Source of the DNA: Halohasta litchfieldiae
Lineage (GTDB): Archaea > Halobacteriota > Halobacteria > Halobacteriales > Haloferacaceae
Reading direction: 5' to 3'
Assembly: GCF_002788215.1 (NCBI RefSeq)
Contig: NZ_CP024845.1
Coordinates: 1,736,001-1,800,000 of the forward strand
Length of the DNA: 64,000 bases
Shown here: positions 13,331 to 37,670 of the stretch, one piece after another
How positions within the stretch are numbered: the first letter of the stretch is position 1
Layout: each line of letters opens with the position of its first letter
The notes under the pieces: generated by a model
The model's input: only the letters and a program-made list of their open reading frames with translations
Told to the model about the DNA's origin: nothing
The model's database searches: none
Program-made: the position numbers and the translations under genes

Positions 13331-13720
13331 ATGCGAGAATCGGGGCGGGGGCCCAAAAGCCCATCAGTTCGGGATTCGGAGGTTGGAGCCTTGGTGTTCC
13401 GTGGGTTGGGTTATAAAGAGCCGTCGACGGGCTGGGGTCACTGATCTGCGCTATACAGAGGCTTAGTCGTTCGATTTTTGTTCACAATCGTATAAAAACA
13501 GGGCAACATTTCGGGGAGTATATGTATGACAAACTCTGTTGATTCCATCTTAGTTAGTATAAATACCCATCTTCGCCACATACTTGAAGAATAATCGCTA
13601 ACTGACTTAGCAGTCCAAATTTGTTAGGTCGGCTGTTCATTAACTTGGATCCCCTACGAAACATCAGAGGATAGAGTTACACTCGTACCTCTCAGTGGTT
13701 TCCGTTCGACCCTGCCCCAG
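13331..13720. other. AT-rich intergenic region upstream of hemC
   Basis: No protein-like ORF. It contains several TATA-like elements on both strands (TTATAAAG near 13410, TATAAAAAC near 13490, TATAAATAC near 13558), clearly richer in A and T than flanking genes. The elements could drive hemC on the minus strand and the hairpin-rich segment that follows on the plus strand. Confidence 0.4.
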
Positions 13721-13880
13721 AGAACCTGTAATTTCCCCCTCACAGGCACTCATACTAAACTCCCCCAAGCGGAATGTACAGGAACCAATTGCCCCCACAA
13801 CGGGTTCCTATATTTGCGGACGCACTTGCCCAGTTTCCCGAGTTGTGCCGCCGTTTCCCCCAAAAGGTAGTACGGCACAC
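13721..13880 (+). ncRNA. Series of C5-loop hairpins, candidate non-coding RNA
   Basis: At least three hairpins carry a CCCCC loop on the plus strand. CCTGT/ACAGG at 13725-13729 and 13742-13746 has loop AATTTCCCCCTC. AGGAACC/GGTTCCT at 13780-13786 and 13803-13809 has an inner TTG/CAA pair closing CCCCCA. GTGCCG/CGGCAC at 13845-13850 and 13873-13878 has an inner TTT-CCCCC-AAA. A further CTCCCCCAA (about 13760) is unpaired as far as I can see. There is no codon pattern. The strand is inferred by analogy with the better-supported elements near 35.5 and 37.2 kb. It lies in the 3' flank of the convergent HTH gene. Confidence 0.4.
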
Positions 13881-13916: not shown

Positions 13917-14591
13917 TTATATACTATCCCGAGATCGGCCTTCTCGCCTCTCAAACCGCTTGTTGAGAAGTTGCTTATGACCACGACGAAGTAGGACACT
14001 ACAGGCTGACGAAGAAATATTGAGTTCGGTTGCAACATCACCGAGAGAGGCATCTCGGGGTGTATTGAAATATCTCATTTCTAATGCCGTTTTGAGCGCG
14101 TGTTCTTGCTTGCTCGTGAGTAGCGACTCGTCCTCCATCGATTGAAACTCTACTTCTTCAAAGAGGGATGTGAGTTCGAGCTCAATTAGATCATCAGAAA
14201 TGTCAGTGAAAAACTGAGAGACGTTAGCACGGGTTGGGAACCGAAACTCGAATCTCCACTTCACATTGTCTCCTCGTGCGAACAGAAGGACACCGTCGTT
14301 ACGGACAACACTGGAAATGAGTTTGTGTTCTTGTTTATCCCACTCTAATTTGTACAGTCTCCCATCGTCAAAATTTTCTACAATGGAGAGAGCTGTGACT
14401 TCAGGAAGAGACTTTGCAGTTTCTTCAAATAACTCATAGTTCGTACAGTTCCAAACAAAAATATACGGGAATGTCCCTTGGCGCATCGGCACAACCCGTT
14501 CGATCTCGATTTCGGCATTGGGCTGGTTTTCGATGCATTGACCGAGTGAAAGGCTGTTAGCCGGAGCAGAAAACGCAGCAATGATACTCAT
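13917..14591 (-). CDS. Bat-type HTH-10 transcriptional regulator
   Basis: A 224-residue protein with the two-part layout of bacterio-opsin-activator-like regulators: an N-terminal sensor-like domain (residues 1-150) and a C-terminal HTH-10 domain. In the latter, LLTSKQEHALKTALEMRYFNTPRDASLGDVATELNIS is followed by a recognition helix with SACSVLLRRGHKQLL. The ATG at 14591 (MSIIAAFSAPANSLSLGQ) matches the usual start of this family. Codon use is clearly richer in A/T than in the hem genes around it, so horizontal origin is likely. Target genes are unknown; hemL is the nearest upstream gene. Confidence 0.8.
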   Translation of the reverse strand: MSIIAAFSAPANSLSLGQCIENQPNAEIEIERVVPMRQGTFPYIFVWNCTNYELFEETAKSLPEVTALSIVENFDDGRLYKLEWDKQEHKLISSVVRNDGVLLFARGDNVKWRFEFRFPTRANVSQFFTDISDDLIELELTSLFEEVEFQSMEDESLLTSKQEHALKTALEMRYFNTPRDASLGDVATELNISSSACSVLLRRGHKQLLNKRFERREGRSRDSI

Positions 14592-14786
14592 AGTAAATGG
14601 AGTACACTCTCTGCGAACGAAAGAGATGTTACCAGTTGTTGGCTCCGTTGCATCCGCAGAAGTCGATAGAACGGACATACAAGATGCAAAAGATCTGCAT
14701 AGTAATACGAACCCGTCTATGTTTAGCGTGTGAATTTATCCCAGCCCCACATAATCGAGAAGAAAAATCTATTTTCGAATCTCTGT

Positions 14787-26599: not shown

Positions 26600-27463
26600 T
26601 TACTGATCGTTCATCGCTTCGCTGGCGATGTTGCGACCGCGGGAGTTGAGCGTCACCTCTCTGCGGACCCGAACCTCGTCGACGATGTCGAGTTCGACGA
26701 GGCGCTCGAAGATCTCTTCGACGGTGTCGACATCCTTGCCGATGAAGGCCGGAATCTCGAACGGCGAGACGCCGGAGTAGAGCGCCATCAGCACTTCCTT
26801 ATCGGCTTCCGAGAGGTCGGCGTTGGTCTGACTCCGCCGTTCGCCCTCCGCGAGGAAGGATTTGAGGAACATACAGATCCGTTTGGGGCCGGTGAGGTGG
26901 GTCTGAACGCTGGTGTCGCCCTCGACGTGGGAGACCTGAATAACGACTTTCTTCTCGCCGTTGACGGTTCGCTGGTCGGTTTCGACGCCGCTGATGTCGT
27001 CGAGATCCAGCCGAACGAACTCGCCGCTTTTGAGGGCCGCCGCAATGGCGTCGTCCTCGACTTTGAGCCGGGCTTTCTGCCATTCGGTATCTTGGACGAC
27101 ACCGCCGGCGACCGCAGGGTGTTTGGCCTGAGCGATCTTCTGGTCGAGAACGGCCTCATAGACGGCTGTTTGAAACTCCTCGTGGTCCGACGCCGAGACC
27201 AGCATCACGTCGTTGTCGACTTTGAGACTGAGATAGCTCGACACGGCCGCAATGTTCTGATTTGGATCGTGTCGACCACCCAACCCTTCGATCTTCGACA
27301 AGGGGATGGTCCGCTTGCCCTCATTGCTTGCGACGATGATGCGACGGTTCGACAGGAGGATACGGCCCTGTGACCACGAGACGTCGTTGATGGACCGGCC
27401 ATCTTTGACCGCCTGTGCGAACCGCCCCTTCGTATCAAGTATCTTGTACTCGCCTTCACTCAT
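26600..27463 (-). CDS. cheF: CheF archaeal taxis protein (archaellum adaptor)
   Basis: A 287-residue protein of the archaea-specific CheF family. CheF links CheY and the receptor-signalling proteins to the archaellum motor in Halobacterium. Family features include GRILLSNRRIIVASNEGKRTIPLSKIEGLGGRHDPNQ and a C-terminal winged-helix-like segment (LSEADKEVLMALYSGVSPFEIPAFIGKDVDTVEEIFERLVELDIVDEVRVRREVTLNSRGR). It is the last gene of the minus-strand cheB-cheA-cheR-HEAT-cheF block. Only one cheF copy lies in the window. Confidence 0.9.
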   Translation of the reverse strand: MSEGEYKILDTKGRFAQAVKDGRSINDVSWSQGRILLSNRRIIVASNEGKRTIPLSKIEGLGGRHDPNQNIAAVSSYLSLKVDNDVMLVSASDHEEFQTAVYEAVLDQKIAQAKHPAVAGGVVQDTEWQKARLKVEDDAIAAALKSGEFVRLDLDDISGVETDQRTVNGEKKVVIQVSHVEGDTSVQTHLTGPKRICMFLKSFLAEGERRSQTNADLSEADKEVLMALYSGVSPFEIPAFIGKDVDTVEEIFERLVELDIVDEVRVRREVTLNSRGRNIASEAMNDQ

Positions 27464-34767: not shown

Positions 34768-35391
34768 ATGTCCGTAGAGGAACTCCCGCTTGCGTCGACG
34801 CTCACCGAAGCCGAGAGCGTCGTCATTGCAGGGCCCCCGATGAGTGGGAAGTACAATCTCATGCACCGCATCCTCGGTGAAGCAGGCGACCGCTCGATCA
34901 TTCTCTCGACGGGCCACGACGCCGAGCGCGTCCGGGCCGACTACGCCGAGACCACCGGCCACGACCCCAAGACCTCCCCCATCGTCGACTGTGTCACCCG
35001 CGAGCAGGGTGCCGAGGTCGAAGACACCGACCTCACTAAGTACGCCTCCTCGCCGAAAAATCTCACCGAACTCGGCGTGAAATTCACCGAACTCGCCGAG
35101 AACTGGGAGTCCCATACCGACACGTCGGTGGGTGTCCACTCGCTGTCCCAGTTGCTGATGTACTGGGATGCCGACCGCATCTACCAGTTCGTCCGCGTGC
35201 TCCTCGGCCGCACCCGTAACCAAGGCTGGCTCACCGTCGCGGTGATCAACTCCACGATGCACGACGAACGCACCCTGCATACGCTGCTGGACCCGTTCGA
35301 TACCGTCGTCGACACCCGAACGACCGACGAGGGCTGGGAGATGCGACTCCGCGACCGGAATTCGTCGCCGACAGCGTGGCAAGAGTTCTGA
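34768..35391 (+). CDS. Degenerate RAD55/KaiC-like P-loop protein
   Basis: A 207-residue protein with GPPMSGKYNL as a P-loop-like motif; the usual [S/T] after GK is Tyr, so nucleotide binding may be altered. SIILSTGHDAERVRADY and GWLTVAVINSTMHDERTLHTLLDPFDTVVDTR resemble the strands of RecA-fold proteins of haloarchaea. No Walker B Asp is certain. It ends the plus-strand set cheW, ATPase, small protein and this gene, which suggests a role in signal transduction. The ATG at 34768 has a gap of about 100 bases upstream. Confidence 0.7.
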   Translation: MSVEELPLASTLTEAESVVIAGPPMSGKYNLMHRILGEAGDRSIILSTGHDAERVRADYAETTGHDPKTSPIVDCVTREQGAEVEDTDLTKYASSPKNLTELGVKFTELAENWESHTDTSVGVHSLSQLLMYWDADRIYQFVRVLLGRTRNQGWLTVAVINSTMHDERTLHTLLDPFDTVVDTRTTDEGWEMRLRDRNSSPTAWQEF

Positions 35392-35508
35392 ACGGAGTAG
35401 CCATCAGTTCCGAGCAGCGTCGCGTCGAACCCGTTAGTTTGTATCGGCTTTCGTGAGTACCAAACCGGTTAGGTTGTATCCTTTTGTCCGAGAGGGGCCT
35501 ACAGTATG
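35392..35508. other. Spacer before RNA-like element A
   Basis: No ORF. It holds the CTTTTG box (35481-35486), 28 bases before the conserved GTGAGG (35509), which is the candidate promoter of element A. Direct repeats of the GTTAGTTTGTATC / GGTTAGGTTGTATCC type occur just upstream. Confidence 0.4.
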
Positions 35509-35630
35509 GTGAGGTACCGGAGATAGTAGCAGTCGGCCGTCATCCCCCACGGCTGCTGATACTGGTTCCCCCAACCCGGTACTGCTCTCGGTTCAGTCTG
35601 CCCACGCAGTGTCCCCCACTGCTGTTTTCC
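35509..35630 (+). ncRNA. Candidate structured RNA A with C5 loops
   Basis: About 120 bases, beginning GTGAGGTACCGG. Hairpin 1 (35530-35558) has stem GCCGT/ACGGC, extended outwards with one bulge, and loop CATCCCCC. A second C5 loop is at 35569-35572, between TACTGG and CCGGTA. The long-range stem GTACCGG (35514-35520) with CCGGTAC (35576-35582) is an alternative pairing. The last hairpin is GCAGTG/CACTGC (35606-35611 and 35617-35622) with loop TCCCC, followed by TGTTTT. There is no protein-like frame. Element B near 37.2 kb is homologous, with compensatory base changes. Confidence 0.6.
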
Positions 35631-35762
35631 AGCGATCCACACGAAGTGTCAGTCACCACTGTCTTTTTCCACCGAGTCTGACAGCAGGCGTCGACCGCCT
35701 GTTCTGTATTTGACTGCCTGTTCTGTATGGTAGTACGCGTCGAGCCAGTCACCACCATCTCG
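35631..35762. other. Spacer downstream of RNA-like element A
   Basis: No ORF. A 13-base direct repeat GCCTGTTCTGTAT is present at 35697-35709 and 35716-35728. A T-run (GTCTTTTTCC, about 35661-35670) could serve as a second terminator. Confidence 0.4.
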
Positions 35763-36938
35763 TCAGCCCTGCTCGGCGTCGACGACCTGCTGTCGGAGTC
35801 GGTTGATCCGTTTTTCGGTCGACGGATGGGTTCGAAACGACCCGGTCGCCTGCTCCCGATCACCCGGCGGCAGGATGTCGAGTGCGCCGACCGACTGTTC
35901 CCACTCGCGGAGGTCGGTCGACGGTGTCTGTCGCTGTTGACTGAGCGTGCTGAGCGCTGCGGCGAGTGCGGCTGGCGATCCAGTGAGCGCGACCGCCCCG
36001 GCGTCCGCAGACCACTCGCGGCCACGGGAAAGGATCGCGACCCCGAACTGGCCGTACAGTTTGAGTGTCCAGATTGCAGCATTGATCAGATAATCGCCGA
36101 CATCATCCGGGTTGTCGTCGAGCAACTCCTCGGCCATCAACACCGGCACCAATACCGTACCCATGATCCGACTGTCCGCGTTGGCGAGATGGCTGACTTC
36201 GTGGGCTAACACGGCCCCCACTTCCGCTTCGGAGAGGCTCTCAAACAGCCCAGTCGACACCACGATCACGGCCGCAGTACCGTAGCCGAGCGTGAACGAT
36301 TCCGGCCGGTCGGAGTCGGTAATGCGGAGCGTCGGTGCCGGGACGCCAACCTGTTGGGCGAGTCGACTGGTCGTTTCGGCGAGTGTGGGGTGTGTCTCGA
36401 CGGCTGGCTCACTCCCCTCGAGAAGCTGATCGCGGAGCCCAGCGAGTTCGCGCCGGGCAGTCGAAACCGTCGACCAGATCGCAAGCAGCCCGCCGAGAGA
36501 CAGAGCGATCACGAACCCACCGAGTAGCAGTTCGAACGACGAAAACAAGCCTTCGATGACCGCACCAGTCTCAACCATCGCTAGGTACAGACACCCAAGC
36601 CAGACGAGAACGACGACGACCGGAGCCCGTGGAAATCGCTGGGTGAGCCGGTTGCCCGACGGAGAAAGGCCGAACCAACCGACGATGACAGTCGCAACGA
36701 CTGCTCCGACTGCAACCACAGCCGGTGACAGTGGAGTGATTGCTGACAGCCGCGGCGCAACGACGATGAATTCGGCGAGCCGACCGAAGAAACCGAACAG
36801 CATGACTCCGAGGACGGCCCCAAAGACAGTCACGACGACAGTCATTCCGAGTGTGAACGTCCCGAGAATCCCGAGGGCGACGACCATTCGACAGAACAGC
36901 GAGAACCGAAGCCAAAGCCGAGATGTCGACACAGCCAT
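35763..36938 (-). CDS. M48-family membrane zinc metalloprotease (HtpX-like)
   Basis: A 391-residue protein from the ATG at 36938 (MAVSTSRLWLRF). It has N-terminal membrane segments (FCRMVVALGILGTFTLGMTVVV, a second hairpin near 75-95, and a pair near 115-165). A cytosolic peptidase domain contains the zinc motif HEVSH (VLAHEVSHLANADSR) and the third ligand region SRGREWSADAGAVAL. HtpX proteases degrade misfolded membrane proteins. C-terminal PSTEKRINRLRQ is typical of M48B. It is a single gene between two similar plus-strand elements (35.51-35.63 and 37.13-37.26 kb), an arrangement that suggests insertion or duplication. Confidence 0.85.
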   Translation of the reverse strand: MAVSTSRLWLRFSLFCRMVVALGILGTFTLGMTVVVTVFGAVLGVMLFGFFGRLAEFIVVAPRLSAITPLSPAVVAVGAVVATVIVGWFGLSPSGNRLTQRFPRAPVVVVLVWLGCLYLAMVETGAVIEGLFSSFELLLGGFVIALSLGGLLAIWSTVSTARRELAGLRDQLLEGSEPAVETHPTLAETTSRLAQQVGVPAPTLRITDSDRPESFTLGYGTAAVIVVSTGLFESLSEAEVGAVLAHEVSHLANADSRIMGTVLVPVLMAEELLDDNPDDVGDYLINAAIWTLKLYGQFGVAILSRGREWSADAGAVALTGSPAALAAALSTLSQQRQTPSTDLREWEQSVGALDILPPGDREQATGSFRTHPSTEKRINRLRQQVVDAEQG

Positions 36939-37132
36939 ATCTGATAGCTGTAAAAACAGCCACTTAAAATTCAGGTATGCCAACAGGATCCGTGTCTCGG
37001 CCGAGAGCGGGGTCGACGCGCTCTGTGAGGGGGATGGACAGTCCGTCGACGAAACAGCACCCGGCAGTCAGGGTTCCCAACACCCAAACAGAGTAGGCTC
37101 TGTGCTTTTGATCTCTGCTGACCGACTACGTA
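36939..37132. other. Divergent upstream region of the M48 gene
   Basis: No ORF. A hairpin (ATAGCTGTAAAAACAGCC, about 36953-36960) and an AT-rich stretch (CACTTAAAATTCAGG) lie near the M48 start. The CTTTTG box at 37105-37110 lies 28 bases before the conserved GTGAGG of element B. Confidence 0.4.
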
Positions 37133-37261
37133 GTGAGGCACCGGAGACACAAGCAGTCAGCCGACCCCCACGGCTGATGCTGCTGTCGACTCCCCCATCC
37201 GGTGCTGTCTGTCTCGTCCCACTCTGCCGGGCAGTGTCCCCCCCCCCCACTGTTGTTTTTT
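37133..37261 (+). ncRNA. Candidate structured RNA B with C5 loops
   Basis: About 129 bases, beginning GTGAGGCACCGG. Hairpin 1 is CAGCCG/CGGCTG (37158-37163 and 37171-37176) with loop ACCCCCA. The second C5 loop (ACTCCCCCATC) lies before CCGGTGC. The long-range stem GCACCGG (37138-37144) with CCGGTGC (37199-37205) corresponds to GTACCGG/CCGGTAC in element A. The last hairpin is CAGTG/CACTG (37232-37236 and 37248-37252) with a C-run loop, followed by TTGTTTTTT. Relative to A, the T-A pair is replaced by C-G and a G-U pair by A-U, so pairing is preserved. Confidence 0.6.
37232..37261 (+). terminator. Hairpin plus T-run at the end of element B
   Basis: A five-base stem around a C-run loop is followed at once by TTGTTTTTT (37253-37261), the layout of an intrinsic terminator for a plus-strand transcript. 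T-runs are also natural archaeal terminators. Confidence 0.5.
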
Positions 37262-37346: not shown

Positions 37347-37670
37347 ATGGTCGAGTTCGATCCCGAGCAGTTCGAAGACAAGTACGCGAACTACTTTCCG
37401 CAGCTCCAGCGGGCCTACAAGAACGCGTTCAACACGATGAACGACACCTACGATTCGACGCTGATCCACGCTATCGATCAGCAGGTGCTCAACGAGAGCG
37501 AGCCGTTCTACAACGCCGAGCGAGAGGGGTTCGACATCGAACTGCCCGATGAGCCCTACGAGCGACTGGAAGGTGTGGTGGTCGACCGCGAGCGGTTCGA
37601 GGAGGTCCTCGCGGAGTACACCGACGAAATCGAGCTGGAACTTCGGCAGACGTTCCGCATGACGGAGTAG
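37347..37670 (+). CDS. DUF5783-family haloarchaeal protein
   Basis: A 107-residue protein of unknown function. The ATG at 37347 (MVEFDPEQFEDKYANYFPQLQRAYKNAF) matches the family start as I know it; an in-frame start 22 codons upstream lies in non-coding sequence. The protein is acidic and mostly helical, with a well-kept central block (YDSTLIHAIDQQVLNESEPFY) and C-terminal EVLAEYTDEIELELRQTF. No catalytic motif is seen. It lies upstream of the Nfu gene on the same strand with a gap of 56 bases. Confidence 0.82.
   Translation: MVEFDPEQFEDKYANYFPQLQRAYKNAFNTMNDTYDSTLIHAIDQQVLNESEPFYNAEREGFDIELPDEPYERLEGVVVDRERFEEVLAEYTDEIELELRQTFRMTE

Follow-up and report, generated by a model that had tools for sequence, protein, structure and literature searches.

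C-loop elements of Halohasta litchfieldiae: an apparently new, multi-locus family of predicted structured non-coding RNAs with a common promoter

Two similar intergenic elements of Halohasta litchfieldiae, A and B, lie on either side of an M48 peptidase gene. They raise the question of whether such a pair encodes an RNA and, if so, what kind of regulator that RNA would be. Both are located in a 64-kb stretch of the chromosome that was analysed as a whole (the window; Table 1). A and B are homologous, share a covarying structure with invariant unpaired C-tracts, are preceded by a common promoter, and belong to a set found at several loci. We hold with high confidence that they form a family of structured non-coding RNAs, and they apparently represent a new RNA family in Halohasta, composed of a co-regulated multi-locus set.

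Table 1. Coordinates of the C-loop elements, their promoter motifs and neighbouring genes in the window
Feature	Position	Strand	Remarks
Upstream dyad of E, TCCAAAT-TT-GTTAGGT	13614..13629	+	TTCATTAA 6 nt later; genome-wide dyad scan, 1 mismatch
Element E, diverged third predicted C-loop RNA	13664..13880 (about; ends inferred)	+	C5-triple scan, folds
DUF7504 (KaiC-like) gene, end of che cluster	34768..35391	+	synteny anchor upstream of A, C and D
Upstream dyad of A, ACCAAAC-CG-GTTAGGT	35459..35474	+	near-perfect inverted repeat, 6 nt 5' of CTTTTG box
CTTTTG box (TATA-like) of A	35481..35486	+	28 nt 5' of presumed transcription start
Element A, predicted C-loop RNA	35509..35630	+	model match, covariation, fold
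Long-range stem of A	35514-35520/35576-35582	+	
C5 tracts of A	35544-35548 (inner hairpin loop); 35568-35572 (single-stranded)	+	
3' end of A			last hairpin GCAGTG/CACTGC with C-loop, then T-run
M48 peptidase gene between A and B	35763..36938	-	PF01435; incidental
Degenerate upstream dyad of B, CCCAAACAGAGTAGGC	37083..37098	+	aligned with A, C and D; 21/24 promoter matches
CTTTTG box of B	37105..37110	+	28 nt 5' of GTGAGG
Element B, predicted C-loop RNA	37133..37261	+	anatomy as in element A
3' end of B			C11 run in loop of last hairpin; terminal T6 run
DUF5783 gene	37347..37670	+	synteny anchor downstream of B and D

The positions and single orientation originally given for the pair were checked in the sequence and are correct. 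A blastn search of the whole genome aligns A with B at 73% identity over 109 nt (E=3e-9). The MAFFT alignment, in which the two are in direct orientation, has a mean column identity of ~78% with the flanks included, in keeping with an earlier estimate by eye of about 80%. Two further copies are known from relatives. Element C is the orthologue at the same locus in H. litorea, 3' of DUF7504 (blastn, one copy), and element D is the orthologue in the Halohasta MAG B1-Br10_E2g22, between DUF7504 and DUF5783.

The promoter region is shared by all four copies. CTTTTG precedes GTGAGG by exactly 28 nt, start to start (22 nt between), in A and B, as had been predicted, and C and D keep the same spacing. 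In archaea, a TATA box is usually found where CTTTTG lies here. The pattern CTTTTG-N22-GTGAGGYACCGG has two matches in the window, A and B, and none elsewhere there even with three mismatches; 0.06 were expected. The near-palindrome ACCAAAC-N2-RTTAGGT is located 6 nt 5' of CTTTTG in A-D. In dyad scans, the dyad of A is a perfect match to ACCWAACNNRTTWGGT and the sole perfect site in this genome, and the orthologue of A in H. litorea likewise has the sole perfect site of that genome. No tRNA was found in the 64-kb window.

A-D have one predicted anatomy. The RNA would begin with 5'-GUGAG, followed by stem P1 (7 pairs), which encloses an inner hairpin, P2/P3, whose loop is CCCCC. A single-stranded UCCCCCA, the closing arm of P1, a variable linker, and a last hairpin, P4, with a C-rich loop complete the element. 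A T-run follows the last hairpin in A, B, and D, and none is obvious in C. Three unpaired CCCCC tracts (hairpin loop, single strand, last hairpin loop) are thus retained in A-D; they are mostly unpaired in the predicted ensemble, and those of the inner loop and of the single-stranded J2 do not vary. Several details of this anatomy had been read from A and B alone. The C5 loop of hairpin 1 and the last CAGTG/CACTG hairpin are present in both, and the long-range stem is GTACCGG/CCGGTAC in A and GCACCGG/CCGGTGC in B, with both arms changed. A G-U pair of hairpin 1 in A is A-U in B, also as described. The second C5, originally taken to be a loop, is not apical; it is an unpaired joint that connects the inner hairpin to the arm closing the long-range stem.

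The original prediction called for the copies to be aligned and folded and for haloarchaeal genomes to be searched with a covariance model. With C and D added, covariation is far stronger than in A and B alone: compensatory changes on both sides are observed at 11 of the 31 pairs of the four-sequence alignment. The covariation score is 0.435 versus 0.196 for shuffled alignments, and 0/500 shuffles reach it. This alignment was registered by hand with the structure in mind and holds only four sequences; left out of it are N padding, six bases from the internal loop, and a few that precede the last stem of D. In it, 90% of cells pair, and structures slid by 1-3 columns have at most 66% paired and at most 4 double-sided pairs. 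RNAalifold returns the same structure from the hand-registered alignment. Given an unguided MAFFT alignment, it still finds P1-P3, supported by 8 covarying pairs, but not P4. P3 of D (ACCACAG/CTGTGGT) shares little with that of B (TCAGCCG/CGGCTGA) and is still fully paired. Minimum folding energies are well below those of shuffled sequences for the first 82 nt of B (z=-3.7) and for C (z=-4.5), and modestly so for full A, B, and D (z ~-1.8 to -1.9). The plus strand is favoured, with 7 G-U cells versus 2 A-C, both of the latter in the internal loop of D.

Three readings other than a free-standing RNA were weighed against these data. The first in frame is a small protein-coding gene, since a single frame is stop-free in A-D. 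In the gap-free first 30 nt, however, there is at most one synonymous codon difference per comparison and the second codon position takes most of the changes, and the copies differ by indels of 1-2 nt that throw the frame out of register; this reading can be nearly dismissed. A DNA-level element (a transposon or integron end, a recombination site, or an operator cluster) would account for the patchy presence and for paired copies that flank a gene in one species only. It is very improbable, as the copies are in direct orientation without terminal repeats or a recombinase nearby, A has no plasmid match and B no phage match in the collections searched, G-U pairs outnumber A-C cells in favour of one strand, and promoter and RNA are conserved as a unit at different loci. 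Coding copies or a known transposon end would have refuted the original prediction, and the substitution pattern, the indels, and the absence of terminal repeats speak against both. A cis-acting leader is improbable as well, if less so. DUF5783 follows B and D on the same strand at a distance of about 85-110 nt, and the elements F and F2 described below precede a BAT/HTH_10 gene. But A is tail-to-tail with the M48 gene, C with its remnant, and E with an opposite-strand BAT/HTH_10 gene, so these three have no gene downstream in sense. The last hairpin is terminator-like, with a T-run in A, B, and D, and in other genera DUF5783 is preceded by a short region of its own that lacks the element. What was proposed at the outset, a functional RNA of unknown family whose C loops could bind a protein or pair with G-rich RNA, is supported by the compensatory changes, promoter geometry, G-U bias, non-coding pattern, absence of an Rfam match, and additional members; its transcription has not been shown.

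The neighbouring protease gene is not part of the system. A PF01435 gene does lie between A and B, as first noted, and B is itself upstream of DUF5783 and a NifU-like gene. The M48 gene is absent beside D, and only a remnant accompanies C, so the flanking arrangement is incidental. The remnant in H. litorea (L004:2727-2900, + strand) has 50% identity over residues 321-379 and one stop. Its sequence indicates that the gene which separates A from B here has decayed there.

The A-D type appears to be restricted to Halohasta. A covariance model, R1, built only from B (with the last loop shortened by 3 C) and C, finds A with 68 bits (E=4.5e-10 per genome) and D with 49 bits (E=2e-6). Outside Halohasta, R1 and R2 found no convincing member in ~560 Halobacteria genomes (167-170 of the family and 391 of the class). 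The weak matches that were read there are mostly coding-like or lack the anatomy; one in another genus, L054, has one C7-loop hairpin and none of the remaining anatomy. Pattern scans of genome and viral collections returned only Halohasta and unrelated matches, and 41 viral loci preselected for TCCCCCA-CCGGTRCTG reached at best 19.5 bits in R2, which is not convincing. Within the genus, no second (B) copy is present in the 566 on-contig bases upstream of DUF5783 in H. litorea. In the fourth Halohasta genome (G001), DUF7504 and DUF5783 are ~70 bases apart with no RNA in the gap, and the element is absent from that locus in other genera with the same gene order. A DUF7504 tree weakly suggests that the RNA was lost in G001, not gained.

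Element E is a diverged member in the same window. In 1.26 Mb of the genome, a scan for C5 triples spanning no more than 85 nt picked out A, B, and position 13734 (E) and nothing else, with 0.7 expected, and the dyad of E was listed by the genome-wide dyad scan independently of the C5 scan. Other dyad sites with one mismatch are not followed by a C-loop element. The 5' part of E is predicted to form a 5' hairpin and then a stem, UUCCGUU/AGCGGAA, around the hairpin CCUGU[C5]ACAGG and the single-stranded CUCCCCCA. The 3' part has the hairpins AGGAACC[C5]GGUUCCU and GUGCCG[C5]CGGCAC. This repeats the topology of A-D: the long-range stem encloses a C5 hairpin together with an unpaired C tract, and C5-loop hairpins follow. 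The fold of 13700-13812 has z=-2.6. E is tail-to-tail with a BAT/HTH_10 regulator gene (13917-14678, - strand). No homologue of E was found by blastn in 34 relatives; at its site, H. litorea has katG and G001 has almost no spacer.

Elements F and F2 are an orthologous pair at another locus. F is a C5 cluster of H. litorea (L217:12694, - strand) with ACCAACGTACGTAGGTTCAGAGCTTTTC upstream. F2, in the present genome (L229:2178-2420, + strand; G000:C1:1982178), has the common promoter and lies upstream of a gene for a 917-aa PAS/GAF/BAT-HTH_10 regulator. The two elements precede the same BAT/HTH_10 gene, and CTCCCACT and ATGCGGGCA are common to both. ATGCGGGCA follows the box by 22 nt, the same spacing as CTTTTG to GTGAGG in A-D. 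Fold support for F and F2 is weaker.

Promoter scans tie these elements together. They covered 2.06/3.33 Mb (62%) of this genome but little of its relatives. When 5.18 Mb of strand are scored with the consensus promoter of A-D, these four come first and F and F2 next (18/24); the following matches (17/24) have no C5 run, save one with a single run. A position weight matrix trained on A-F places A-F and F2 as its top seven over the same length, each with at least three C5 runs downstream, and matches ranked 8 and below have 0-1. F2 was outside the training set, and E, ranked seventh, was inside it. At least three C5 runs in the next 210 nt are found after the F and F2 promoters and at 0.06% of background positions. 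In total, at least four elements at three loci of one genome have the common promoter. E, F, and F2 have almost nothing in common with A-D but the promoter and the C-tracts, and they were found only by promoter and C-tract scans; sequence search alone misses such families.

A looser scan for C5 clusters (100 nt, 62% of the genome) lists other clusters without the promoter, some of them CRISPR-like or tandem-repeat. C-runs alone are therefore not diagnostic, and the combination of promoter and C-runs is. A tandem array of ~29-31-nt units (L248:14626-14860, + strand; G000:C1:194626-194860) has hairpins like GCAGTCCCCCACTGC or GCAGTTGCCCCCGCTGC, lies in an AT-rich neighbourhood without the common promoter, and is possibly another C-loop RNA. 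In a C-rich stretch at L246:17488 (+ strand; G000:C1 about 3057488), a weak AACTAGGTAG motif is followed by several C5 runs. Repeats of ACACACCCCCAATTGTAAGTGT at L226:12975 (- strand; G000:C1 about 1932975) are possibly a repeated binding site or hairpin.

These observations suggest a model for how the RNAs may work. A and B would be independently transcribed non-coding regulatory RNAs of roughly 120-200 nt. Each would present several CCCCC tracts, in hairpin loops and in one single-stranded stretch, on freely drifting stems. Since the dyad and the CTTTTG box 28 nt before the start are common to the members, one transcription factor probably controls all the C-loop RNA genes and would turn them on or off jointly through the dyad. 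Promoter, start, and C-tracts are kept while the stems drift, which is the signature of RNAs that use several equivalent C-loops. The loops would most likely be redundant antisense seeds that pair with G-rich stretches of mRNA, in translation-initiation regions or elsewhere. Pairing would repress or protect the targets, as in the bacterial RNAs LhrC, alpha-r14/NfeR1, and sX13, and it is these analogues that favour antisense action on G-rich mRNA. Granted a structured non-coding RNA family, we put the chance of an antisense mode slightly above even, with both transcription and antisense action inferred.

The main rival is a decoy, or sponge, in which the C5 loops would bind and titrate a C-tract-binding protein in the manner of CsrB/Rsm RNAs. 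The motif is short, is repeated 3 to 5 or more times, and differs in count by locus; its flanks are not conserved beyond a U or A, the stems diverge completely, and members share a palindromic upstream element, as Rsm RNAs do. The rarity of G5 targets near starts also fits a decoy. No protein partner has been identified, however, and the better-matched architectures, LhrC and alpha-r14, act by base pairing, so we consider the decoy unlikely, if still to be reckoned with. We know of no titrated C-tract-binding regulator in archaea and of no RsmA/CsrA-type protein in haloarchaea. The antisense reading itself finds few candidates at start sites. G5 occurs at -20..0 in 5/361 genes versus roughly 2 per 20-nt bin farther upstream, and the positive control, GGAGG, in 20 versus about 7 for the same genes. 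UGGGGGA was not seen near the starts of these 361 genes. As G5 is rare there, start-site targets would be few.

In the gene MSEGEYKILDTKGRF... at window position 27463 (- strand), probably cheF, a G6 tract stands 10 nt ahead of the start codon, and the upstream region also has a conserved ACCCCCACCCC. This tract is the best-placed candidate nearby, and it was rejected as a target because the tract and ACCCCCACCCC are also present in G001, where the RNA was not found.

The best overall explanation, held with slightly better than even confidence, is a multi-locus, co-regulated family of C-loop RNAs with antisense seeds, in which transcription, co-regulation, and antisense action are all inferred. 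A wider reading makes it a dedicated archaeal regulon of at least four co-expressed C-loop RNAs under one dyad-binding factor, with redundant seeds or decoys. Such a regulon would be an archaeal counterpart of LhrC or Gac/Rsm, with selection on the promoter and the C5 loops only. This joint claim is tentative, and somewhat more likely to fail than to hold. The dyad-binding factor is possibly one of the BAT/HTH_10 regulators beside E and F2. Because covariation is clear, the promoter diagnostic, and the functional unit as simple as a C5 loop, the regulator, targets, or protein partner of the family can be tested directly in a culturable haloarchaeon.

Few archaeal small RNAs have known targets or mechanisms, and, to our knowledge, the multi-copy C-loop design of regulatory RNA is so far known mainly from bacteria. 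No Rfam 15 family reaches its gathering score in the 64-kb window, and the best permissive matches are sub-gathering. Among archaeal intergenic regulators with known targets, loop 2 of sRNA154 and sRNA41 mask ribosome binding sites (PMC5867862). These RNAs and sRNA162, all of Methanosarcina, and sRNA132 of Haloferax are not described there as multi-locus C5-loop families, and no C-rich motif is mentioned. 6C RNA of Actinobacteria (RF01066) also has C-rich loops but consists of two hairpins, and its match to B is at chance level (15.6 bits, E=7.7).

The decoys RsmX/Y/Z and CsrB are sequence-unrelated paralogues that have in common just the loop motif and an upstream palindrome. In Rsm RNAs, GGA occurs several times in unpaired positions, and the upstream activating sequence is a palindrome (PMC2375449). 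Their GGA binds RsmA/CsrA, whereas the Halohasta loop motif is CCCCC. sX13 of Xanthomonas is a small RNA with C-rich loops on three stems, and its 4C/4C/5C loops act on G-rich mRNA motifs (PMC3771888). It has three consecutive stem-loops, no long-range closing stem, and no sequence homology to the elements; A-D have two C-rich apical loops and one single-stranded C5 in place of its three apical loops.

Alpha-r14/NfeR1 and alpha-r7 of alphaproteobacteria (RF02344, RF02342) share with the Halohasta RNAs three unpaired C-rich motifs on stems that differ in sequence. In alpha-r14, each of three hairpins presents the same C-rich anti-SD motif on a stem that has diverged from the others (PMC10746234). 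With the alpha-r14 and alpha-r7 models, D reaches 20.6 and 19.5 bits, far below the gathering scores of 58.8 and 60 (E=0.045 for alpha-r14), and A and B have no match to RF02344 up to E=10. The alpha-r14 motif is the anti-SD CCUCCUCCC, whereas that of Halohasta is C5-C6 (UCCCCC) without a conserved CUCC, so the motifs do not correspond; the order of elements and the domain of life also differ. LhrC1-5 of Listeria monocytogenes is likewise multi-copy, and all of its own copies are under one regulator (PMC4132741); for the Halohasta elements a single regulator is inferred only from the common promoter. The redundant C-rich sites of LhrC in a loop, a single strand, and a terminator loop are matched in A-D by analogy, without sequence homology. 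LhrC differs in being bacterial and low-GC, in having mutually homologous copies, and in its CUCCC motif, which is antisense to the SD. On the best reading, which rests on analogy, the Halohasta RNAs would work like bacterial C-loop sRNAs while being members of no family tested, and they would represent convergent evolution of the bacterial C-loop design.
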